Of a stretch of 48,934 bases of DNA, positions 269 through 46,665 are shown one piece after another. A program made the translations under genes and the position numbers. The first letter of the stretch is position 1; the number at the start of each line of letters is the position of its first letter. The stretch is from Prevotella sp. (GTDB lineage: Bacteria > Bacteroidota > Bacteroidia > Bacteroidales > Bacteroidaceae): assembly GCA_017960525.1 (NCBI GenBank), contig JAGCZA010000009.1, positions 1-48,934 on the forward strand. Direction: 5' to 3'. Below the pieces are notes generated by a model that saw only the letters and a list, made by a program, of their open reading frames with translations, had not been told where the DNA came from and searched no databases.

Positions 269-309
269 AATTTGGTTCGTCCAAACTCACAGTTTGGTTC
301 GTCCAAACT
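269..309 (+). repeat. 19-bp palindrome array, cluster A (2 copies, 22-bp period)
   Basis: Copies lie at 269-287 (first residues AATTTGG) and 291-309 (AGTTTGGTTCGTCCAAACT, exact consensus), separated by CAC. Arms AGTTTGG and CCAAACT flank a TTCGT loop. The array sits about 140 bp upstream of the rpmB -7 box. Sister arrays are at 22068, 33381 and 45474. Confidence 0.9.
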
Positions 310-8897: not shown

Positions 8898-9692
8898 TTA
8901 CTTCAAAATGTTGTAGAGCAGCGATGTGAGCGAAATCAGGATGCTCGTTGCCGAGAACCAGAGGGTGGTCATGCTACCAACGCTGGAGTTCTGGGACTTC
9001 ACCTTGTTGGGGGTGACGTAGATAACATCGTTCTGCTGCAGATAGTAATAAGGCGAGTTGATGATGTTGGCATCGGTGAGGTCGAAGAAGTGAATGGACT
9101 TCTGGCCGGTGCTGTCCTCGCGAATGAGTTGCACGTTCTTGCGCTGGCCCCAGATGGTGAGGTCGCCAGCCTGTGCAAGTGCCTCAAGTATGGTTATCTT
9201 CTCACGCGAGACGTTGAACGTACCGGGACGCGCCACTTCGCCAATGACCGAAATCTGATAGCCCGGCATACGCACGGTGACGATGGGCTTTTCCTCTGAA
9301 GCCATATAAGGCTTGATCTTTTCCTGAATCATGTTCTCAGCCTGCGACTTGGTGAGGCCTCCCACATGCAGTTTGCCAACGATGGGGAAGTTGATATTGC
9401 CCTCGTTGTCCACCAGATAGGCCTGCAGCATAGCCTGCGAATAGGTATTACGGCTGTTCACGGTATAGGGCGTGGGCACAGTCAGGTTGAAAGGCACGGC
9501 AGCCTCGTCGGTCGTAGTACTCACGGTGATGGTGAGTTGATCCTTAGGCATAATGCGTGCATCGTAGAGATACTGCGACTTGGACAAGTCGGTAGCAGCT
9601 GAGTTCTGGAAATAGGGCACGTCTTTCTGGCTTCCACAACTGGCCAGCAACAAGAGTGCGAACAAGGGAAAAAATACTTTTCTGTAATCCAT
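8898..9692 (-). CDS. Outer-membrane polysaccharide export lipoprotein (Wza/BexD-like)
   Basis: The protein (264 residues from the chosen start MDYRKVFFPL) has a lipoprotein signal ending LLASC with Cys19 as the lipidated residue. The polysaccharide export domain spans about 35-140 (RIMPKDQLTITVS, then GNINFPIVGKLHVGGLTK) and an SLBB domain lies about 150-235 (ISVIGEVARPGTF). The C-terminus ends in a hydrophobic helix, as expected for an outer-membrane export channel of capsule or exopolysaccharide. An ATG ten codons upstream (9722) falls inside the -7 box at 9720-9727 and is unlikely to be used. No Wzc-like kinase partner is adjacent. Confidence 0.88.
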   Translation of the reverse strand: MDYRKVFFPLFALLLLASCGSQKDVPYFQNSAATDLSKSQYLYDARIMPKDQLTITVSTTTDEAAVPFNLTVPTPYTVNSRNTYSQAMLQAYLVDNEGNINFPIVGKLHVGGLTKSQAENMIQEKIKPYMASEEKPIVTVRMPGYQISVIGEVARPGTFNVSREKITILEALAQAGDLTIWGQRKNVQLIREDSTGQKSIHFFDLTDANIINSPYYYLQQNDVIYVTPNKVKSQNSSVGSMTTLWFSATSILISLTSLLYNILK

Positions 9693-9719
9693 ATTGTCTG
9701 TTATTGATGATTTTGGGTG

Positions 9720-9727
9720 CAAAATTA
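9720..9727 (-). promoter_or_regulatory. -7 box for the polysaccharide export gene
   Basis: The minus strand reads TAATTTTGCACCC, matching TAnnTTTGCA, 28 bp before the ATG at 9692. This placement decides the start of the export protein. Confidence 0.65.
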
Positions 9728-9805
9728 CTGCTTATTTTCGAGATAAACAAATAAACGGCTAAAAAATTGACGATTGCCTGCAAAAACTATGGCCAAAGCA
9801 CGGTG

Positions 9806-12136
9806 CTACCACAACTCTTCGTCGGCTGTTACAGACTTTTCCTCCTCCTGCGGCTTTGGCTTCTGGGGCAACTGTTTCACTTTCCCTTCAGCATCGAACA
9901 TACCGTAGGTGGTTCTAAGCACGAGGAACTCCGTGCGGCGGTTCAACTGGTGGCAGGTTTCCTGCTTCTCCTCGTCGTTCAGGGCGTTGATGAACTCTTC
10001 GGTGAGCACATCGTCTGCCTTCAGCCAGTCGTAGCGCTCCGTCAGCCTGCGCTTGACGGTCTTGGGCTTGTCCTCGCCATAGCCCTTCGGCGTGAGGCGG
10101 TCGGCGGCGATGCCGTGCTCAATGAGATAGGCGACGACGCTCTCTGCCCTGCGTTGCGACAGCCGCTCGTTGTACTCGGCAGAGCCGCGACAGTCGGTAT
10201 GGGCGCTCAGTTCTATGGTCACATTGGGGTTCTCGTTCAACAGTTCCACCAGTTTGTCGAGGGCTTCGGCACTCTCAGGCCGGAGCGTGGCCTTGTCGAA
10301 GTCGTAGAAAATATTTTCGATGAGCACGGGGGCTGAAATGTTGGCCAGTGGGAACTGCAGGGTGTACTCCTCGCTCTCCAGCACAGGCTCTACGCGCAAT
10401 TCCTCCTTGTGATTGAGGAAGCCCTTGCAAGTGCCGAGGAACACGTAACTCACGCCGGGCTTGATTTCCTGCTCGAAAGAGCCGTCGCCCTTCACGTTCA
10501 ACTTCATATTGGTGCCGTCGTTGCCCACCATATAGACCTGTCCGCTGGGCAGTTCGTAGCCGTCTTGCTCGTAGACCCAACCCTTGACGGTCTGCACGAC
10601 CTCGTGTTTCTCAAAGGAATAGATGTGGTCCCAGCCACGGGCGTCGCCCCGGTTACTGGAGAAGTAGCCGCGATTGTGCAGCCCCTCGAAGGTCATTCCG
10701 AAGTCGTCGCCCTGAGAATTGAGCGGCCAGCCGGGGTGTTCCAAGTCATAAGTGACAAGCGGCGAGTCGTCATTCTTGTCGCTCTGCTCCACGGGCTTGG
10801 CGATGAAGATGTCGAGGCCGCCGAAGCCTGGATGGCCGTCGCTGCTGAAGTAGAGGTCGCCATTGGGGCGGAACGTTGGGAACATCTCGTCGCCAGGCGT
10901 GTTGATAGGTTCGCCCAGGTTTTCCAGTCCAATGAGGCCGTGACTGGTCATTTCGATGCGCCAGATGTCGTAGCCGCCCAGTCCGCCAGGCATATCGCTG
11001 ACGAAGTAGAGCCACTGGCCGTCGGGCGAGACGGCAGGATGTGCGAAAGTGGAAAGCGTGTCGCGGGTGATTTCCTGCACGGTGGCCTTGCCCCACGAGG
11101 CATCGCTGCGCTGGCTGGTGGCTATCTGGGCGTAGCGCGGATAACTGGGGTCGGTCTTGCAAACGGTGAGATACATCGTCTTGCCGTCGGGCGTGAAGGC
11201 ACAGGCGCCCTCGTCCTCCTCGCTGTTCAGGTCGCTTTCGATGGCCTCGGGCTTCGACCACTTGCCCTTGTCGTCCTTCTGCGAGAAGAAGATGTCGGCA
11301 TTCTTGGTGCCCGTGATGCCGCTCACCTCGTCGCCCTTGGCCTGGTTGCGCGTCGACGAGAAGAAGAGTTGGTCGCTGTCGTCGCCGCAGAGCATAGGCG
11401 AATACTCCGCACGTCGCGAGTTGAACAGTTCCTGTTTCTTCACGGTATAGCCGCTGTATTCGGCCTCTTCCTTCCATTTCGGGGCCTGACGGGCTGACTC
11501 CAGCCCTACCTTGACAAGGCGCATATCGGGCGAGACGTGCTTCTTCAGCGAGTCTTTCTTGGCCTTTGCGGCCTCTTTCTCGGCTTTCTCGGCTTCCTTC
11601 TCGGCCTTTTCAGCCTCTTTTTCGGCCTTCTTTTCCTCGGCGGCCTCGCGTTTCAGGGCTGCTTTTGCACTCTCTTTCTTGTTCTTGCCGCGCCGTTTCT
11701 TCTTGACGGTCTTCTTGTTCTGCTGCTTTTCCACAACGGGGGCCTCCTCCAAGACCAGCGTGCCGTCGAGCAAACTGCTGAACGACTGTTCGGCTTCCTT
11801 GTAGTTGCCGTTCTTCAGTTGCAACTGACCCAGGTAGAACACGGCCATAGAGTCGGCCTGCTTGTAGCGCACGGCATTGTTGTAGGCCGCCATCGCCCTT
11901 TGCGTCTGGTTGATGCGGCGGTAGCAGTCGGCCATCTTCAGCGCCCTCTGTCCGCGCAGGGGGCGGTCTTTGGCCTTGGTTTGTGAATACGCCTTCTTGT
12001 ACTGGTCGGCGGCATCGTAGTATTCGCCCAAGGCGAAGAACTTGTCGCCCTTCTTCATAGCCGTCTCTGCCCCACAGGCGGACAGCACCAGCACGGCCAC
12101 AATTATATATAATATGGTATAGCAAGAATTGCGCAT
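9806..12136 (-). CDS. PorE-like OmpA-family lipoprotein (TPR, propeller, CRD, OmpA)
   Basis: This 776-residue lipoprotein (lipobox LSAC, Cys21) has TPR-like repeats at about 30-130, a Lys/Glu/Ala-rich coiled coil with AEKEAEKAEKE repeats at about 140-205, a WD40/PD40-type beta-propeller at about 225-480 (repeated SPDGQWLYFVSD-like blades), a carboxypeptidase-regulatory-like domain at about 525-605 and a C-terminal OmpA peptidoglycan-binding domain (SAHTDCRGSAEYNERLSQRR). This order is the one I know for PorE of the Porphyromonas T9SS, which anchors the secretion ring to peptidoglycan. The charged coiled coil is an extra. It may instead be a general OmpA scaffold. No clear -7 box is seen upstream. 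Confidence 0.8.
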   Translation of the reverse strand: MRNSCYTILYIIVAVLVLSACGAETAMKKGDKFFALGEYYDAADQYKKAYSQTKAKDRPLRGQRALKMADCYRRINQTQRAMAAYNNAVRYKQADSMAVFYLGQLQLKNGNYKEAEQSFSSLLDGTLVLEEAPVVEKQQNKKTVKKKRRGKNKKESAKAALKREAAEEKKAEKEAEKAEKEAEKAEKEAAKAKKDSLKKHVSPDMRLVKVGLESARQAPKWKEEAEYSGYTVKKQELFNSRRAEYSPMLCGDDSDQLFFSSTRNQAKGDEVSGITGTKNADIFFSQKDDKGKWSKPEAIESDLNSEEDEGACAFTPDGKTMYLTVCKTDPSYPRYAQIATSQRSDASWGKATVQEITRDTLSTFAHPAVSPDGQWLYFVSDMPGGLGGYDIWRIEMTSHGLIGLENLGEPINTPGDEMFPTFRPNGDLYFSSDGHPGFGGLDIFIAKPVEQSDKNDDSPLVTYDLEHPGWPLNSQGDDFGMTFEGLHNRGYFSSNRGDARGWDHIYSFEKHEVVQTVKGWVYEQDGYELPSGQVYMVGNDGTNMKLNVKGDGSFEQEIKPGVSYVFLGTCKGFLNHKEELRVEPVLESEEYTLQFPLANISAPVLIENIFYDFDKATLRPESAEALDKLVELLNENPNVTIELSAHTDCRGSAEYNERLSQRRAESVVAYLIEHGIAADRLTPKGYGEDKPKTVKRRLTERYDWLKADDVLTEEFINALNDEEKQETCHQLNRRTEFLVLRTTYGMFDAEGKVKQLPQKPKPQEEEKSVTADEELW

Positions 12137-12252
12137 ACCATTATATAACGTTGCTCAACTCGTTTTATTGCATCGGCATTTTTCTGTTCGGAATATAGGC
12201 TTAGACTTTCGCCCTGGACTGCAACGACAAGAGAGTAATAACCTTTGGTCGG

Positions 12253-12337
12253 AGTTAGAAGGTATATAACTCAGAGTTAGAAGGTATATAACTCGGAGTT
12301 AGAAGGTATATAACTCGGAGTTAGAAGGTATATAACT
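12253..12337 (+). repeat. Tandem array of a second 19-bp palindrome (4 copies, 22-bp period)
   Basis: Units AGTTAGAAGGTATATAACT lie at 12253-12271, 12275-12293, 12297-12315 and 12319-12337, separated by CAG, CGG and CGG. Arms are AGTTA/TAACT, or GAGTTA/TAACTC with the flanking bases of the inner copies. The period and the AGTT...AACT ends equal those of the TTCGT arrays although the core differs. The array lies in the divergent gap 12137-12483, whose remaining sequence is AT-rich apart from the promoter at 12448. Confidence 0.92.
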
Positions 12338-12447
12338 GCTATTCCCTACGATTCCCCTCCCCTTCTCCAGCGACGGGGAACAGGGGCCAATTGAGACAAA
12401 TTATCTAAAATAAATGTGTTTTTTATAGCAGATACAGACTTTTTTTG

Positions 12448-12455
12448 TACCTTTG
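12448..12455 (+). promoter_or_regulatory. -7 box for the zinc-ribbon/thrA/apgM operon
   Basis: TACCTTTGCACC, a full extended match, 29 bp before the ATG at 12484. Its position excludes a possible upstream TTG start at 12445, which would lie inside the box. Confidence 0.75.
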
Positions 12456-12483
12456 CACCGCAAAAAAAACAAAAACAAGACTT

Positions 12484-12864
12484 ATGAAATGTCCCAAATG
12501 CTCACACGAGAACGCTGAAGGCGCCAAATATTGCAGCCAGTGCGGCCAGAATCTGGCCGACGTGAAAGACTGGCCCAGCCTTCTGCTGCTGGGGTGGTGC
12601 GGCTCGCTGATATTCTTTGCCGCCGCCTATTTTGTCATCGGCTACGTGGGGTCGCTGCTCAATATGGAGTGGCAGGCCCGCAACTATGCCATCTTCGTCA
12701 TCTCCATCATCCAGTCGTTCACCTTCCTGGTCATCCCCTTTGCCATCAGGAAAACCAGTTACAAGGTGGCCGCGTTCATTATGGTATTGATTTACATTGT
12801 TTGGACGGTGGTCTCAAACGTGAGCAGCATCATCAACACTTACGAAATCAGCAGTAATTACTAA
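12484..12864 (+). CDS. Zinc-ribbon membrane protein, first gene of the thr operon
   Basis: The 126-residue protein starts MKCPKCSHENAEGAKYCSQC, a rubredoxin-like four-cysteine zinc ribbon (two CxxC pairs), followed by three hydrophobic segments at about 35-58, 66-85 and 93-115. Zinc-ribbon plus membrane-helix proteins are widespread and mostly uncharacterised. It ends 3 bp before thrA, so it is probably the first gene of the threonine operon. I cannot assign a function; the linkage to aspartate-family biosynthesis may be accidental. Confidence 0.75.
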   Translation: MKCPKCSHENAEGAKYCSQCGQNLADVKDWPSLLLLGWCGSLIFFAAAYFVIGYVGSLLNMEWQARNYAIFVISIIQSFTFLVIPFAIRKTSYKVAAFIMVLIYIVWTVVSNVSSIINTYEISSNY

Positions 12865-18873: not shown

Positions 18874-19656
18874 ATGCAGCAGGAAACGTTTGGGATAGTA
18901 ATGGTGGGTGCAGGACGCCTGGCCACCAACCTTGCGCTGGCTCTTCACGAGAGCGGCCAAAGGGTGGTCGCCGTCTACAGCCGCACGATGGAGTCTGCCC
19001 AACGGCTGGCCGACAAGGTCGGCGCCTTGGCCACCAACGACATAGCCGCCCTGCCCACTTATGCCGACGCTTTCATCCTATCCGTCAAAGACGATGCCCT
19101 CCCCACGGTTATCGCCCAGTTGCGCCAAGGCAGAGAAGATTGCTGTTTCTTCCACACAGCCGGTTCGGTGCCGATGGCAGTCTTTGGGGAGCATCCCCTC
19201 CAAGGTGTCATCTATCCTATGCAGACGTTCTCGCTGGATAAGCGGGTGGATTTTTCCCAAATCCACATTTTCATAGAGGGAAACACTCCGCAGACGCTCC
19301 AACTGGCACGCCAATTGGCACAGACGGTAAGCCCACACATACACGAAATGACTTCTGAACAGCGACGAAAACTGCACTTGGCTGCCGTCTTCGGCTGCAA
19401 CTTCGCCAATCACTGCTACACCCTGTCCGCCCACATCCTGGAGCGCGAAGGATTGCCTTTCGACGTGATGCTGCCCCTCATCGACGAAACTACGGCAAAG
19501 GTGCACACCATACACCCACGCGACGCACAGACAGGGCCAGCCGTGCGATTCGACGAGAGTGTGATGGGGGCGCAGAAAGAGATGCTCAACGACGAGCCGC
19601 TGCTGCAACAAATCTATTCGCTTATGAGCGAGAGCATACACCTGACCAAACTATGA
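18874..19656 (+). CDS. Rossmann-like and DUF2520 domain protein
   Basis: The 260-residue protein has an N-terminal Rossmann fold with the dinucleotide motif [16 protein letters not shown] (about 9-24) and a helical C-terminal DUF2520 domain beginning near residue 130. The architecture resembles ketopantoate or pyrroline-5-carboxylate reductases, but the family has no firmly known substrate. It overlaps the kdsC-like gene by 4 bp (ATGA), indicating translational coupling. Confidence 0.88.
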
Positions 19657-20192: not shown

Positions 20193-20780
20193 ATGAAGCA
20201 ATACCGTATCGTTTTAGCAAGCAACTCTCCACGCCGCCGCCAATTGATGGGCGGCCTCGACATTCCCTTTGAGGTAAGAGTTCTTCCAGACATTGAAGAG
20301 AATTATCCAAAAGGATTGTCTGTCAACCAAATACCAGAATACATAGCAACCGAGAAGGCCGAGGCTTACAGGGCACAAATGGCCGGCGACGAACTGATTA
20401 TCACAGCCGATACGGTCGTTATTCTGGGACAGGAGGTGCTCGGCAAACCTTCTGACTCCGACGACGCTTGCAGGATGCTCAGGGAGTTGAGCGGGCGCAC
20501 CCATCAGGTCATTACGGGCGTCTGCCTGACAACCAAAGAGCGGCAGAAAAGTTTCTCCGTCACCACTGATGTCACCTTCGGCCCCCTCACCGAAGAGGAA
20601 ATCACGCACTACGTGAAGAAATACCAGCCTTTCGACAAGGCCGGTGCCTACGGCATTCAGGAATGGATCGGCTACATTGGAGTGACGGGGCTGAAAGGCA
20701 GTTATTACAACGTGATGGGCCTGCCCATCCAACGCATTTATACTGAACTGAAGGCGTTTTCCGATTCTTCTGACGAATGA
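20193..20780 (+). CDS. maf: Maf-family nucleoside triphosphate pyrophosphatase
   Basis: The 195-residue protein starts MKQYRIVLASNSPRRRQLM; the ASNSPRR motif is diagnostic. ITADTVVILGQEVLGKP (about 70-86) carries the catalytic Asp, and DKAGAYGIQEW lies near 150. Maf proteins hydrolyse modified or canonical dTTP/UTP/CTP-type nucleotides to monophosphates, a house-cleaning role. The residues that separate the YhdE from the YceF subtype suggest the dTTP/UTP type, but this is uncertain. It overlaps the T9SS plug gene by 4 bp. Confidence 0.93.
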   Translation: MKQYRIVLASNSPRRRQLMGGLDIPFEVRVLPDIEENYPKGLSVNQIPEYIATEKAEAYRAQMAGDELIITADTVVILGQEVLGKPSDSDDACRMLRELSGRTHQVITGVCLTTKERQKSFSVTTDVTFGPLTEEEITHYVKKYQPFDKAGAYGIQEWIGYIGVTGLKGSYYNVMGLPIQRIYTELKAFSDSSDE

Positions 20781-22030
20781 TGAAGACCTTGATACGAATG
20801 GCTTTATCCGCCATAACAGCCGCAATGCCCTTCGCCGCTACGGCGTGGCACAGCGTGAAAGTGCCCAACGTGAAGGGGCTGCAAGTGGTGTTCAACGACG
20901 ACTTTGAGGCCCTGCCCGTGCTCAAATTGGGCAGTAACGATGTCCTGCACATCGGCTTCGACGAGATGTCGCACAACTACCACCGCTTCACCTACACGCT
21001 GGAGCCGTGCAACCCCGACTGGACCCCGGTGGAAGGACTCTTCGAGAGCGACTGGCTGGCGGGCATCAACGGACTGCCCATCGACGACTACGAAAACTCC
21101 ATCAACACCGCCATACTCTACAACCACTACGAACTGACCTTCCCAAACCGTGACTGCCAGCCAAAGATGAGCGGAAACTACCGCCTGCACATCATCGATG
21201 AAGACAACGACGAAGAGGCCATCGTCATAGAGTTAAGGGTTGTAGAGCCGGTTATGAACGTGGGGCTGAGTTCCACCGCCAACACCGACATCGCGCTGAA
21301 CACCAGATACCAGCAGGTGAATATGACCGTCAACTTCAACAGCGTGCGAGTTACCAGACCAGATGAACAGATTCAGACTTTCGTCCTGCAGAACGGACGT
21401 GAGGACAATATGAAAGTGAACGTCCGTCCCACCCACATCACGCCTATGCAGTTGAGATGGGAACACCAGCGGGAACTCATCTTCGATGCCGGCAACGAAT
21501 ACCACAAGTTTGAAGTACTCGACCCCAGCCACACCACGATGGGACTGGCATCGACATCGTGGGACGAGCAGACGCGCTCCTGGCACGCTACGCCATTCCC
21601 CTGCGAGGAACGCCGCAACTATTCCTACGACGAGGATGCCAATGGCGCCTACCTCCAGCGAAACAGCGACAACTACGACATCAACCGCACGGCTGAATAT
21701 GTCTATGTGCATTACCAACTGCTCAATGCGCCACACTACGACAACGCCAATGTCATTGTGACGGGACGATGGGCCAACGAGGAATGTACTCCCTACGCTA
21801 TGGATTACGACGAGGAAAACCGGTCCTATTCGCTCACCATTTTGCAGAAACTGGGTTACTACAACTATATGCTGCTATTGGCCGATGCCGACGGCACCAC
21901 GCATCCGCTGCCCGAAGAAGGTTCTTTCTTCCAGACCGAAAACCGCTACCAGGCATTTGTCTACTACAAGGGAACAGGGGAACGGACCTGGCGTCTGCTC
22001 GGCTTTCAAGAAATAAAACACATACCCTGA
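20777..22030 (+). CDS. Type IX secretion system plug protein (DUF5103)
   Basis: The 417-residue protein has a signal peptide (MMKTLIRMALSAITAAMPFA, cleavage near ATAW). It then has beta-rich domains: the N-terminal part compares with YTLEPCNPDWTPVEGLFESD and NYRLHIIDEDND, and the C-terminal part ends with FFQTENRYQAFVYYKGTGER. This matches DUF5103, which was recognised as the plug that closes the SprA translocon of the type IX secretion system when PorV is absent. The gene is commonly separate from the por core genes in Bacteroidota. It is the last gene of its run; a palindrome array begins 38 bp after its stop. Confidence 0.85.
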   Translation: MMKTLIRMALSAITAAMPFAATAWHSVKVPNVKGLQVVFNDDFEALPVLKLGSNDVLHIGFDEMSHNYHRFTYTLEPCNPDWTPVEGLFESDWLAGINGLPIDDYENSINTAILYNHYELTFPNRDCQPKMSGNYRLHIIDEDNDEEAIVIELRVVEPVMNVGLSSTANTDIALNTRYQQVNMTVNFNSVRVTRPDEQIQTFVLQNGREDNMKVNVRPTHITPMQLRWEHQRELIFDAGNEYHKFEVLDPSHTTMGLASTSWDEQTRSWHATPFPCEERRNYSYDEDANGAYLQRNSDNYDINRTAEYVYVHYQLLNAPHYDNANVIVTGRWANEECTPYAMDYDEENRSYSLTILQKLGYYNYMLLLADADGTTHPLPEEGSFFQTENRYQAFVYYKGTGERTWRLLGFQEIKHIP

Positions 22031-22067: not shown

Positions 22068-22152
22068 AATTTGGTTCGTCCTAACTATGAGTTTGGTTCG
22101 TCCTAACTGGTAGTTTGGTTCGTCCAAACTATAGGTTTGGTTCGTCCAAATT
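22068..22152 (+). repeat. 19-bp palindrome array, cluster B (4 copies, 22-bp period)
   Basis: Copies start at exactly 22068, 22090, 22112 and 22134, with spacers ATG, GGT and ATA. All contain TTTGGTTCGTCC. The first two end CCTAACT, which breaks the stem but keeps the AACT end; the third is the exact consensus; the fourth is GGTTTGG...CAAATT. The array lies between the T9SS plug stop and the valS promoter. Confidence 0.93.
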
Positions 22153-22248: not shown

Positions 22249-22256
22249 TACCTTTG
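22249..22256 (+). promoter_or_regulatory. -7 box for valS
   Basis: TACCTTTGCACC, 32 bp before the valS ATG. The gap also holds a partial relative, ACCTTTGCACC at 22038-22048, that lacks the leading T. Confidence 0.75.
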
Positions 22257-22288: not shown

Positions 22289-25000
22289 ATGGAAATAGCA
22301 AGCAAATACGACCCTCGCGAAGTTGAGGGTAAGTGGTATCAGTATTGGCTGGATAACAAACTTTTCAGTTCGAAGCCAGATGATCGTGAACCTTATACAA
22401 TCGTCATTCCCCCGCCCAACGTGACGGGCGTGCTCCACATGGGGCACATGCTCAACAACACCATTCAGGACATCCTTATCCGCCGTGCTCGTATGGAGGG
22501 CAAGAACGCCTGCTGGGTGCCAGGCACCGACCACGCCTCGATAGCCACCGAGGCCAAAGTGGTGAAGAAACTGGCCGAACAGGGCGTCAAGAAGCGTGAC
22601 CTCACCCGCGACGAGTTTCTGAAGCACGCCTGGGACTGGACCGACGAACACGGCGGCATCATCCTGAAGCAGTTGCGCCGCCTCGGTGCCTCGTGCGACT
22701 GGGATCGCACCGCCTTCACGATGGACCCTGTGCGCTCTGAGAGCGTCATCAAGGTTTTTGTCGACCTTTACCGCAAGGGCTATATCTATCGCGGCCTCCG
22801 TATGGTGAACTGGGACCCGAAGGCTCTTACCGCCCTCTCAACCGAGGAAGTGGTCTACAAGGAGGAACAGAGCCATCTCTTCCACCTGAAGTACTACGTT
22901 GACGGCCTCAATGCCCTTGACAACGAAGATGCTTTGAAGGCAGAAGGTAACGTTATCCATAAGGATGCTAAAGGCTACTACGCCGTTGTGGCTACCACAC
23001 GTCCTGAGACCATTATGGGCGATACCGCTATGTGTATCAACCCCAAAGACCCCAAGAACCAGTGGCTGAAGGGCCGCAAAGTTATCGTGCCTCTGGTAAA
23101 CCGCGTCATCCCCGTCATCGAGGACCGTTACGTGGACATCGAGTTCGGAACGGGCTGTCTGAAGGTGACACCCGCCCACGACACCAACGACTATATGCTG
23201 GGCAAGACGCATAACCTGGAGACCATCGACATCTTCAATCCTGACGGCACCATTTCCGAACAATCGCCCATCTATGTCGGAATGGACCGTATGGACTGCC
23301 GCAAGCAGATTGTCAAGGACTTGCAGGCCGCTGGGCTGATGGAGAAGATTGAGGACTACACCAACAAAGTGGGCTACTCGGAGCGAAACCCCGACACACC
23401 CATCGAGCCGCGTCTCTCCTTACAGTGGTTCCTCAAGATGGAACATTTCGCACAGATTGCCCTGAAACCCGTGATGGAGGGTGAGATGCACTTCTACCCC
23501 CAGAAGTATGTCAATACCTATAAGAACTGGCTGGAGAACATCCAAGACTGGTGCATCAGCCGCCAGTTGTGGTGGGGTCACCGCATCCCTGCCTATTACT
23601 ACGACGAAGAGAAGTTCGTCGTTGCTGAGACGGCCGAGGAGGCACTTGAACTGGCACGCAAAGAGAGCGGCAACAACAACCTAAGTCTAAACGACTTACG
23701 CCAAGATGAGGACGCACTCGACACTTGGTTCTCATCGTGGCTTTGGCCCGTCAGCCTCTTCGACGGCATCCGCAATCCCGGTAACAAGGAAATCAGTTAC
23801 TACTACCCCACCAGCGACTTGGTGACCGCCCCCGACATCATCTTCTTCTGGGTGGCCCGTATGATTATGGCTGGCGAGGAGTATATGGGCACGTTCCCCT
23901 TCAAGAACGTCTATTTCACTGGCATTGTGCGCGACAAACTGGGCCGCAAGATGTCGAAGAGCCTGGGCAACAGCCCCGATCCCATTGAACTGATTGAGAA
24001 ATTCGGTGCCGACGGCGTGCGTATGGGTATGATGCTAAGTGCCCCTGCCGGCAACGACATCCTCTTCGACGAAGCCCTCTGCGAGCAAGGCCGTAACTTC
24101 AACAACAAAATCTGGAACGCCTTCCGCCTGGTCAAGGGCTGGCAGGTTGGTTCCGAAGGCTGCGAAAGTAGCGCAGCAAACAAGACGGCCATCGCCTGGA
24201 TGGACGCCAAACTGAAGCAGGCCGATGCTGAACTGAAAGACCACTTCTCGAAATACCGCATCAGCGACGCTTTGATGACCGTCTACAAACTGTTCTGGGA
24301 CGAGTTCTCGCAATGGTATCTGGAGATGGTGAAGCCCGCCTACATCGACGGCAAGCAACAGCCACTCGACCGTGAGACTTACGACGCCACGCTGCGTTTC
24401 TTCGAGATACTGCTGAAGATGCTCCACCCCTTTATGCCATTCATCACCGAAGAGTTGTGGCAGGCCCTCTACGACCGCAAGCCAGGCGAGAGCATTATGC
24501 GTGACCAACTGGTGCTGGGCAAACTGACCACCGAAGACGAGCAACTCATTGCCGACATCGAACAGGTGAAACTGGTAGTGGGCGGTGTGCGAACCGTACG
24601 TAGCCAGAAGAACATCGCACCGAAAGAACGTCTTCAACTCCAGATGGTTAGCCAGAATAGGTTCGAGCGTTACAACGACATCATTATGAAGATGGCCGGC
24701 CTCTCCGCCATCACCGTTGTGGAGCAGAAGGATGCCACCGCCAGTGCCTTTATGGTGGGCACCGACGAACTGGCCGTGCCCCTGGGCGACCTCATCGACG
24801 TGAAGGCCGAGATTGAGAAAATGGAGGCCCAACTGAAGCACCTCGAAGGTTTCCTGATGGGTGTGCAGAAGAAACTCTCTAACGAGCGTTTCGTGGCCAA
24901 TGCCCCTGAGGCCGTCGTGGCCTTGGAGCGCAAGAAGCAGAGCGATGCTGAGGAGAAAATCGCCTCACTAAAGGAATCTCTTGCTGCACTAAAAAAATAA
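22289..25000 (+). CDS. valS: Valyl-tRNA synthetase
   Basis: The 903-residue class Ia enzyme charges tRNA-Val. The HIGH motif appears as [13 protein letters not shown] (about residues 41-53), the editing (CP1) domain includes [13 protein letters not shown], the tryptophan-rich [14 protein letters not shown] lies near 420, and the KMSKS loop is [12 protein letters not shown] at about 554. A C-terminal coiled-coil arm (from about 830) is typical of ValRS. A 19-bp palindrome (24159-24177) lies in the anticodon-binding region. It is 6 bp upstream of the transporter gene and probably cotranscribed. Confidence 0.98.
24159..24177 (+). repeat. Intragenic palindrome within valS
   Basis: GCTGCG-AAAGTAG-CGCAGC has 6-bp arms and a 7-nt loop, read as Gly-Cys-Glu-Ser-Ser-Ala-Ala. 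It matches the apgM element (15888-15904) at 16 of 17 positions and is in the same reading frame. Confidence 0.75.
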
Positions 25001-33380: not shown

Positions 33381-33443
33381 AGTTTGGACGAACCAAACTA
33401 TGACTTTGGTTCGTCCAAACTGGTGGTTTGGTTCGTCCAAACT
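33381..33443. repeat. 19-bp palindrome array, cluster C (3 copies, one inverted)
   Basis: Copies lie at 33381-33399, 33403-33421 and 33425-33443, with spacers ATG and GGT, period 22. The first is AGTTTGGACGAACCAAACT, the exact reverse complement of the consensus; the others are in the forward sense. The array is 7 bp after the serpin stop and upstream of the hflX promoter. Confidence 0.93.
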
Positions 33444-44065: not shown

Positions 44066-45013
44066 ATGGAAAGACACAATTTCGTTACCATCGCCAACCT
44101 CACCCGTGAGAAGATACTCTATATGATTGAGATGGCCCAAGAGTTTGAGCGCCACCCCAACCGCGAACTGCTCAAAGGAAAAGTCGTGGCAACGCTCTTC
44201 TTTGAGCCGTCCACCCGCACACGCCTCTCGTTTGAGACTGCAGCCAACCGCCTCGGCGCCCGCGTCATCGGCTTTGCCGACCCCAAAATAACCAGCGGCA
44301 CCAAAGGTGAGACGCTGAAGGACACCATCCTGATGGTAGCCAACTATGCCGACGTCATCGTGATGCGCCACTTCATCGAGGGCGCGGCGCAGTATGCCTC
44401 CGAAGTGTCGCCAGTACCCATCGTCAATGCCGGCGACGGCGCACACCAGCACCCTTCACAATGTATGCTCGACCTCTACAGCATCTACAAGACGCAGGGC
44501 ACGCTGGAGAACCTTAATATATATATGGTGGGCGACCTGAAATACGGGCGCACCGTCCACTCGTTGCTGATGGCCATGCGCCACTTCAATCCCACATTCC
44601 ACTTCGTGGCACCCAAAGAACTGGCTATGCCCAACGAGTATAAACTCTACTGCAAGGAGCACGGCATCAAGTATCAGGAGCACACAGCCTTCAACGAGAA
44701 GGTCATACAGGACGCCGACATCGTCTACATGACCCGCGTGCAGAAGGAGCGCTTTTCCGACCTGATGGAATACGAGCGCGTGAAGAACGTGTATATCATG
44801 AATAACGACACCCTGCGGCTCGCCAAGCCCAATATGAAAATCCTGCATCCCCTACCCCGCGTCAACGAGATTTCATACGAGGTGGACGACAACCCCCATG
44901 CCTACTATATCCAGCAGGCCGCCAACGGTCTCTTCGCCCGCGAGGCCATCTTCGCCGATGTACTCGGCATATCACTCAACCAAATAAAAGCCGACAAGAC
45001 CATCATCCCATGA
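44066..45013 (+). CDS. pyrB: Aspartate carbamoyltransferase, catalytic chain
   Basis: The 315-residue enzyme joins carbamoyl phosphate and aspartate at the first committed step of pyrimidine synthesis. The carbamoyl-phosphate site [12 protein letters not shown] (about 49-60) and the [13 protein letters not shown] motif (about 129-141) are intact, as is the Asp-binding PLPRVNEI near 267. It overlaps pyrI by 4 bp, and the two chains should form the allosteric holoenzyme known from enterobacteria. The leader is a short A/G-rich repeat; no pyrimidine attenuator is visible. Confidence 0.98.
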
Positions 45014-45456
45014 ACAAGAAAGAACGCCTCGTCGCCGCCATTGAGCACGGCACAGTAATAGACCACATACCCGCCGCCAAAACCTACCAGGTGGCACAGT
45101 TGCTGGGCCTTTTCGACCTGAAGACGCCCGTCACCATCGGCATCAACTATCCCTCGCTGAAAGTAGGGAACAAAGGCATTATCAAGGTGTCGGACAAGTT
45201 CTTCACCGACGACGAAATCTCACGCCTCTCCGTGGTGGCGCCAAACGTCATTCTCAACATCATCCGCGACTACGAAGTGGTGGAGAAGAAAACTGTGGAG
45301 ACACCCGCCGAGATACGCGGCATCGTAAAGTGCAACAACCCCAAGTGCATCACCAACAACGAGCCGATGCAGACACTTTTCCACGTCAGCGGCTCCACCC
45401 TCACTTGCCACTACTGCGAGCGCGAGCAAGACATCAGCAAGGTTGAATTGGTTTGA
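45010..45456 (+). CDS. pyrI: Aspartate carbamoyltransferase, regulatory chain
   Basis: The 148-residue chain has an N-terminal nucleotide-binding domain ([20 protein letters not shown] near residue 8) and a C-terminal zinc domain with four cysteines, in CNNPKCI and later [11 protein letters not shown] and ATP binding to this chain controls the catalytic chain in E. coli. It is coupled to pyrB by a 4-bp overlap. A palindrome array begins 18 bp after its stop. Confidence 0.97.
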
Positions 45457-45473: not shown

Positions 45474-45536
45474 AGTTTGGTTCGTCCAAACTCATAGTTT
45501 GGTTCGTCCAAAGTGGGAGTTTGGTTCGTCCAAACT
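45474..45536 (+). repeat. 19-bp palindrome array, cluster D (3 copies, 22-bp period)
   Basis: Copies lie at 45474-45492 (exact consensus), 45496-45514 (ending CAAAGT) and 45518-45536 (exact consensus), with spacers CAT and GGG. The array fills most of the gap between pyrI and the CDF gene. A decayed trace (GGTTTGACGACAAAT) may exist in the last bases of pyrI, but is too weak to count. Confidence 0.93.
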
Positions 45537-45561: not shown

Positions 45562-46665
45562 ATGAATCGTTCACAAAAGATTATCCGCACCAGCATTATC
45601 GGCATTGTGGCAAATGTGCTGTTGGCAGCATTCAAGGCCGTGGTGGGCGTATTGGCCAGTTCCGTGGCCATCGTGATGGACGCAGTGAATAACCTGAGCG
45701 ATGCGCTGTCGAGCGTCATCACCATTATCGGCACAAAACTTTCCGAGCGGCCAGCCGACCGTGAGCACCCCTTCGGCTTCGGTCGCATAGAGTACTTTAG
45801 TGCCATCATCATCGCCGTCATCGTCCTGACGGCAGGCATCACCTCACTGATAGAATCAGTGAAGAAAATCTTCCAGCCCACGGAGCCGGAATACACCACA
45901 GTAACGCTCTTGGTCATCGTGGTGGCTGTCGTGGTGAAACTGGTGCTGGGACAGTTTGTGAAACGGCAGGGCCAGCAGTTGAAGAGCGACGCGCTGATTG
46001 CCTCTGGCTCCGATGCCCTTTTCGATGCTGTTATCACGCTGGCCACACTGGTGTCGGCAGGCATTATGCTCCTCTGGCATGTGTCGCTCGACGGCTTCCT
46101 GGGCGCACTGATTTCCATCGTCATCATCAAGGCCGGTTTCGAGATGCTGGCCTCTCCCGTCAACGAACTGCTGGGCGCAAGAATTTCTCCGGACTTGGTG
46201 CACGACATCAAGCAGGAAGTATTAGCCTTCGAGGGTGTTCACGGTGTATTCGACATCATCCTGCACAACTACGGCCCCAACGTATTGATTGGTTCCCTGC
46301 ATATAAACGTCTATGACACGATGGATGCCCACGACATTCACGGCCTGACCCGCCGTATCTCCGAGCAGATGTACACCCGTCACGGCATTGTCATGACCGT
46401 CGGCATATATGCTGTTGCCACAGGCGACAACCGACGGGCAGAACTGCAAAGCAAGGTAATGCAGGCATTGGCCAAACACAAGGAAATCCTGCAAGTCCAC
46501 GGTTTCTACTACTTTGAAAAGGAGCATCGAGTTTCAGTCGATGTGGTTCCCGACATCTCCGTCCACGACGAAGCCGCCCTGTCATCCTATCTGACGGACG
46601 AGATAAAAGCCCTCGTCCCCGGAGAGGATGTCACCATCGTGATAGACCATAACTATAGCGAATAA
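45562..46665 (+). CDS. Cation diffusion facilitator (CDF) metal exporter
   Basis: From MNRSQKIIRTSIIGIVANVL the protein has 367 residues: six hydrophobic helices (about 11-205) and cytosolic C-terminal parts. Helix II has AIVMDAVNNLSDALSSV and helix V has LKSDALIASGSDALFDAVI, each with the Asp pair of the metal site. Likely substrates are Zn2+, Fe2+ or Mn2+. The C-terminal region is longer than in the roughly 300-residue FieF, with a second alpha/beta segment. An ATG at 45499 lies inside the palindrome array and is rejected. Confidence 0.92.
   Translation: MNRSQKIIRTSIIGIVANVLLAAFKAVVGVLASSVAIVMDAVNNLSDALSSVITIIGTKLSERPADREHPFGFGRIEYFSAIIIAVIVLTAGITSLIESVKKIFQPTEPEYTTVTLLVIVVAVVVKLVLGQFVKRQGQQLKSDALIASGSDALFDAVITLATLVSAGIMLLWHVSLDGFLGALISIVIIKAGFEMLASPVNELLGARISPDLVHDIKQEVLAFEGVHGVFDIILHNYGPNVLIGSLHINVYDTMDAHDIHGLTRRISEQMYTRHGIVMTVGIYAVATGDNRRAELQSKVMQALAKHKEILQVHGFYYFEKEHRVSVDVVPDISVHDEAALSSYLTDEIKALVPGEDVTIVIDHNYSE

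Follow-up and report, generated by a model that had tools for sequence, protein, structure and literature searches.

The window, a 48,934-nt stretch of a Prevotella genome, carries short intergenic arrays in which a 19-bp palindrome and a 3-bp spacer recur with a step of 22 bp, about two turns of the DNA helix. What keeps this step, and is it the mark of a protein bound along one face of the DNA or of a replicating palindromic unit like REP/BIME, the two readings offered in the initial annotation? Below, the genome of the window is called G000, a sister species G406, and fetched stretches carry L-numbers.

Arrays in the window

A pattern scan allowing up to three mismatches recovered exactly the 12 units in four places that had been annotated, with none in 100 shuffles, and the step of 22 bp was exact for all 12 units within their arrays. 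Array 1 (269..309, plus strand) consists of two 19-bp units (269-287 and 291-309) upstream of an L28-like gene (513-776). Array 2 (22068..22152, plus strand) has four units; a T9SS plug-like gene (20777-22030) ends 37 bp before it, and a valyl-tRNA synthetase-like gene (22289-25000) begins 136 bp after it. Three units, the first of them inverted (- + +), form array 3 (33381..33443), which is flanked by genes for an HflX-like GTPase and a serpin-like protein, the stop of the latter 6 bp away. Array 4 (45474..45536, plus strand) has three units, and the genes on either side of it are PyrI-like (45010-45456) and cation-efflux-like (45562-46665). The four arrays were confirmed, but a fifth 22-bp array had been overlooked, with four units of TCGGAGTTAGAAGGTATATAAC at 12249..12337 in the divergent gap 12136-12484 and a sequence unrelated to arrays 1-4.

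The genes flanking the arrays are functionally unrelated (L28, T9SS plug, valyl-tRNA synthetase, HflX, serpin, PyrI, cation efflux), which makes a regulon unlikely. A TAnnTTTG motif (TACCTTTG, 22249..22256, plus strand), which matches the -7 promoter motif of Bacteroidetes, was found ~97 bp past the right edge of array 2, and outward-pointing TAnnTTTG motifs were enriched 50-100 bp from array edges in G000.

A dispersed family with an exact step

Besides the window, 40 fetched stretches were examined for the family, together ~300 kb of the 3.97-Mb genome, where genes called by codon score covered 84% of the sequence. This sample contained 45 arrays, most of them with three (29) or four (12) units; two had five, one had two, and one was a single unit. 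None of the 45 lay mostly within called genes, in agreement with the annotated intergenic location. In the whole genome, the 15-mer core TTTGGTTCGTCCAAA occurred 347 times and a loose two-unit pattern 172 times, and ~130 dispersed copies of the family were estimated from the core counts. Among 135 strong copies, 84 had their next neighbour at 22 bp and 6 at 44 bp, with no other distance below 200 bp (90/90), and 41 of 44 multi-unit arrays had a single orientation.

The core described as invariant, TTTGGTTCGTCC, was intact in all 12 window units but not in every unit genome-wide. The proposed variability of outer bases at array edges applied to the outermost column pair of the unit (2/18), the most variable of all, but not to whole units, as the mean number of mismatches was 1.25 in edge units (n = 89) and 1.37 in inner units (n = 59). 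The centre TTCGT was conserved as strongly as the arms, and the left arm was strong and the right arm weaker, so that a plain symmetric dimer site is a poor fit. A weak motif extended exactly one repeat (20 bp) past both array edges and then ended.

The position of arrays in gaps tracked gap length without preference for divergent gaps, and 9 of 44 arrays from arbitrary stretches of the genus also lay in convergent gaps. Promoter-specific placement was rejected on these grounds, and operators are not proposed, despite the enrichment of outward TAnnTTTG motifs.

Sequences private to a species

The sequence of the family was private to its genome. The 15-mer core was absent from all 59 other genomes searched, 35 from the genus and 24 from the order, and a 17-mer was absent from all 120 others in a family-wide draw. 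The loose two-unit pattern was present in 5 of 397 other genus genomes, and two of the five, G091 and G230, had a recognisably related array with the centre CCCGT. G140, G186, and G301 also matched the loose pattern; in G301 (L053:1501-1537) and G140 (L056:1501-1537), nested palindromes TTTGGCGCC..GGCGCCAAA formed what is seemingly a different, larger palindrome despite the match. Among the matches listed, those in Parabeggiatoa and Acetatifactor were chance-like and judged unrelated on inspection. A virus or plasmid origin was rejected, as the two-unit pattern was not found in viral contigs, nor array 2 among 72,556 plasmid records.

A comparison of the same gaps in relatives had been proposed, and it was informative. 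G406 had the same genes as the window in the same order, with ~75-88% identity per long aligned block and 91% over part of one gene. Two-sided comparison was possible for twelve array-bearing G000 gaps (two from the window, nine from fetched stretches, and L035, which was aligned through), and the TTTGG array was absent from G406 in 12 of 12. At the gap of array 2, the flanking alignments were separated by ~19 bp in G406 versus 128 bp in the window; array 3 was missing at the matching gap; and the gap of array 4 had no two-sided alignment. The arrays were gained recently relative to G406. The ~350 exact cores in G000, together with the lack of the two-unit pattern of this family in G406, support within-species spread by copying.

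G406 has arrays of its own. At 4 of the 12 comparable gaps, an array of another palindrome occupied the same place: AAATTACG(A/T)CGTAATTT at a 21-bp period in the orthologues of L014, L027, and L049, and AGATAAGTGSCACTTATCT plus 3 bp at a 22-bp period in the orthologue of L042. Exact matches to the former numbered 26 in G406, and 148 other genus genomes contained none. The TCGGAGTTAGAAGGTATATAAC family of the fifth window array was found at 14 further places in G406, where the gap matching the fifth array itself held a different array (L078:2686-2761, AAATTACG family). A single sequence-specific protein would not account for the at least three array families in G406 alone. Next to the gap matching L021, G406 also had a ~25-bp array (TTTGACAGACTAACATACGAACATT, L091:5162-5267), outside the 22-bp ruler.

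Arrays shared a slot at 4 of 12 G000/G406 gaps, in 5 of 22 species at slot A (a count that includes the borderline, coding-like G301 and G180, with a lag of 27), and in 1 of 11 at slot B, versus 0.13 arrays per gap of at least 60 bp. These numbers are suggestive, at most, of array slots conserved between species.

Spacing along the chromosome and the possibility of selfish elements

On the contigs with complete copy lists (C4 to C34 and the window contig, C59), 31 intervals between G000 arrays averaged 18.8 kb. Apart from one local duplicate, 1.3 kb away from its neighbour, arrays were at least 7.9 kb apart. A single interval out of the 31 was shorter than 7.5 kb, compared with 11.1 expected, and none of 20000 simulations was as low; the arrays were also more even than chance (coefficient of variation 0.53 vs 0.88, P = 0.0003). 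Ten further intervals from thinned lists of other G000 contigs had a minimum of 12.8 kb. Oral taxon 299 (NC_022111.1) showed no such regularity. Recombination that removes repeats lying close together, target immunity, and domain spacing are each a possible cause of the minimum spacing in G000.

Selfish intergenic elements are, in our view, an improbable explanation, if the strongest of the rivals. A putative enzyme would copy palindromic units or arrays, 22 bp would be its step and not that of a binder, and the minimum spacing in G000 would resemble target immunity as known from transposons of the Mu/Tn7 type, with their likewise ~22-bp end sites. The presence of several private, multi-copy families in one genome is as expected of such elements, as are the arrays missing from orthologous G406 gaps and the scarcity of short intervals. 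So is a stretch common to G091 (L061:3181-3344) and G230 (L062:1749-1914), in which two unlike 22-bp arrays, CCCGTCCAAAGTGGGAGTTTGG and AAGCACGCCCGTGCTGAATATC, adjoin; the left flanks differ between the two genomes, and the stretch is possibly a mobile composite.

The marks of transposition speak against them. Direct repeats of at least 5 bp at the edges were found for 5 of 45 arrays versus 4.5 after permutation (the three top rows of this test were zero-variance artefacts), and none were found farther out, to 45 bp from the edges. The exceptions to the lack of a general target-site duplication were a 6-bp candidate at L021 and slightly raised 4-bp repeats (21 vs 15.4, sd 3.5). A DDE transposon or its MITE was rejected, since a fixed-length target-site duplication was not seen at the 45 arrays. 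Selfish elements are also disfavoured by the lack of fixed array ends, by the absence of Y1 transposase from 14 of 21 genomes, and by the lack of regular spacing in oral taxon 299.

A 22-bp period common to the genus

Arbitrary 20-kb stretches of the genus were surveyed in two sets, the first from 19 genomes and the second of 20 stretches, 18 from genomes of set 1 and two more, so that the sets are not fully independent. Stretches shorter than 3,000 bp (L194, L170, L173) were excluded from the period survey. Across the 39 stretches, 42 of 70 intergenic tandem arrays with periods of 15-45 bp had period 22 (25/38 in set 1, 17/32 in set 2), and at least one such array was present in 15 of 19 stretches of set 1 and 8 of 20 of set 2. 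Our conclusions rest on these arbitrary stretches; a tally of selected loci (period 22, n = 70) includes the G000 family and some places twice.

Intergenic self-matches peaked at lags of 22, 44, and 66 bp, with z of 7.6, 5.3, and 3.7 in set 1 and 5.7, 2.7, and 2.6 in set 2; with different baseline lags, z in set 1 was 5.0, 3.4, and 2.3. These peaks were not found in coding DNA of set 1. Lag 21 was raised too (z 4.5 and 4.1). In other genera of the family, 6 of 13 arrays had period 22 and 4 of 19 stretches contained one, with z 2.7 at lag 22 and lags 21, 27, and 15 about equal; in other families, period 22 was seen in 1 of 9 arrays and z was 0.7. Two 23-bp arrays (CTCACAAGTTTGTCAGTTTTTAC, L172:8231-8298 and 9647-9736), with the same step as BrickBuilt, were observed in a genome of another Bacteroidales family, and the ruler may vary from one family to the next.

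In NC_022111.1, a finished replicon of Prevotella sp. oral taxon 299, 400 kb contained 16 period-22 arrays (z 7.3, 6.6, and 5.3), so the arrays are not an assembly artefact. AAAAGCA or TGCTTTT was present in 11 of the 16 consensus units, again one private family. In G145, an adjoining pair of 22-bp arrays (L145:3879-4098), one of them polypurine/polypyrimidine, recurred in inverted order 15 kb away (19005-19221).

With a sequence private to each species sampled and a 22-bp step in common, these are apparently an undescribed kind of array, frequent in Prevotella-type bacteria; no description of such arrays was found within open-licence PMC papers. The outcomes named in advance as contrary to the initial annotation (copies at chance level, variable spacing, an existing description) did not appear, as copies were far above chance and the spacing of the family in G000 was invariable.

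The common period bears on whether the arrays are neutral minisatellites, short intergenic repeats expanded by slippage with neither function nor dedicated enzyme. Their intergenic location without preference for gap type and the range of one to five units would suit that explanation. Slippage leaves unexplained why one period recurs across unrelated sequences and is weak in other families, and the genus-wide lag-22 peak, the dyads, and the ~130 dispersed copies of one family make minisatellites a poor candidate.

REP-type repeats, hairpins, and iterons

Mobilisation by a RAYT transposase, as of REP/REPIN-type elements, is a slightly poorer candidate still. The arrays resemble REPs in being short intergenic palindromes, high in copy and species-specific. 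The suggested co-occurrence with a RAYT gene did not emerge from a search for Y1 (PF01797) alone among HUH types: the domain was absent from 14 of 21 genus genomes, including the single-contig genomes G024, G273, G369, and G374, and G000 and G406 each had one partial match. The 2,989-bp locus around the sole G000 match (L064) contained no TTTGG-type unit. The units also lack a conserved unpaired GTAG or CGTC end tag, their spacer triplets vary, and their arms do not covary. Of the reading as a replicating unit like REP/BIME, copying within the species is supported and membership of the REP/RAYT class is not.

A role of the units as hairpins in RNA or as intrinsic terminators is very improbable. 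A unit folds with -6.9 kcal/mol, many G000 arrays have a stop codon no more than 40 bp away, and G406 has a terminator-like hairpin at gap 3, where the window has an array. Intrinsic terminators were rejected because a T-run followed the edge unit at only 8 of 83 edges and array 3 had no terminator match. Structured RNA was rejected because compensated changes in the arms of G000 units numbered 5 versus 4.4 when shuffled, and Rfam gave no match at the arrays. Without arm covariation, it is likely the duplex that is read rather than a hairpin. The left and right flanks of the same array were no more complementary than permuted pairs, so an array in a terminator loop was rejected as well. Equally improbable are chromosomal iteron-like arrays bound, and perhaps titrated, by plasmid-type Rep proteins, which would fit the direct repeats in one orientation and the iteron-like layout of 19 + 3 bp but not the lack of array 2 from the plasmid records.

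Phased nucleoprotein arrays as the preferred explanation

What the unrelated families have in common is geometry. Among 40 arbitrary period-22 units, 21 had a dyad in which 6 or all 7 of the arm positions paired and the loop was no longer than 6, compared with 5.5 expected, and a stricter whole-unit dyad test was weaker (9/49 at p < 0.05). The A/T content of the 40 units had an 11-bp component (z 4.5, or 3.5 relative to dinucleotide blocks), with the 22-bp component depleted and 5.5- and 4.4-bp components raised too. Excess curvature was not found with a wedge model (mean z 0.22 over the 40 units, 5/40 above 1.64; -0.17 for G000 units), and curved DNA was rejected. The step, the dyad, and the helical A/T rhythm, kept across species, point to a protein complex on the duplex with one unit per two turns.

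We therefore favour two-turn-phased nucleoprotein arrays for a putative protein, with families sweeping within species while the sequence turns over, at a probability of roughly 0.4, ahead of a machine that copies in steps of 22 bp. A putative cooperative DNA-binding protein, or paralogous proteins, common to Prevotella-type species would occupy multi-unit sites; each 22-bp repeat would hold one protein unit, all on one face of the helix, and the bound units would nucleate an intergenic complex, either wrapped or filamentous. The geometry (22 bp, a dyad, and an A/T patch each turn) would be retained and the sequence replaced fast. Within a species, a winning array would be copied to many intergenic sites, giving each species private families, as in the different ones of G000, G406, and others. 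The 21-bp period of one G406 family and the raised lag-21 self-match count against a plain 22-bp binder. The annotated reading of one-face binding keeps its two-turn phase, shared genus-wide irrespective of sequence, while the binder is itself only putative. The cooperativity of the protein, the copying route, and any role of the arrays are likewise conjectural; chromosome organisation or supercoil insulation would be a guess.

A broader proposal, which we hold tentatively and think somewhat doubtful, is that a conserved Prevotella machine, an oligomeric binder or a copying enzyme, keeps the geometry while species rewrite the sequence of hundreds of arrays, and that the spacing of at least ~8 kb in G000 marks chromosome domains. 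The common ruler predicts that these bacteria, abundant in the gut and mouth but with a little-known nucleoid, share a protein or an enzyme, and that binding or copying depends on the step and not on the sequence. If the spacing of G000 holds elsewhere, it bears on chromosome domains or on how mobile repeats avoid each other.

Comparison with known systems

Dispersed palindromes between genes are known, but no description of a fixed step common to unrelated, species-private families was found within open-licence PMC papers. Plasmid iterons are direct repeats of 17-22 bp, about two helical turns, at one replication origin, whereas the Prevotella arrays occupy over a hundred intergenic sites. 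The ends of Mu/Tn7 transposons contain several ~22-bp protein sites, and target immunity spaces their copies; the Prevotella arrays differ in having neither general target duplication nor fixed termini.

REPs have an unpaired tag at one end, and GTAG types accompany RAYT genes (PMC3733652). REP/BIME and GTAG/CGTC repeats are, like the Prevotella units, short dispersed intergenic palindromes that are species-specific and sometimes clustered, but REP clusters as described there do not have a fixed 22-bp spacing (PMC3733652). The Prevotella units have CGTC inside the loop only.

A further likeness is to BrickBuilt, a MITE of Porphyromonas gingivalis with tandem 23-nt units, intergenic and dispersed, in 19 copies in one strain; it has a leader and tail with terminal inverted repeats, and is one family in one species (PMC4596501). 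Both are tandem, fixed-length intergenic units, dispersed in Bacteroidales with a limited host range, the unit here being 22 instead of 23 nt. A leader or tail with terminal inverted repeats was not found, the G000 flanks having only the weak 20-bp motif, and some G406 arrays share flank words. Compared with BrickBuilt, the Prevotella arrays have dyad units and no fixed ends, and they comprise many unrelated families across the genus, with ~350 cores in one genome.
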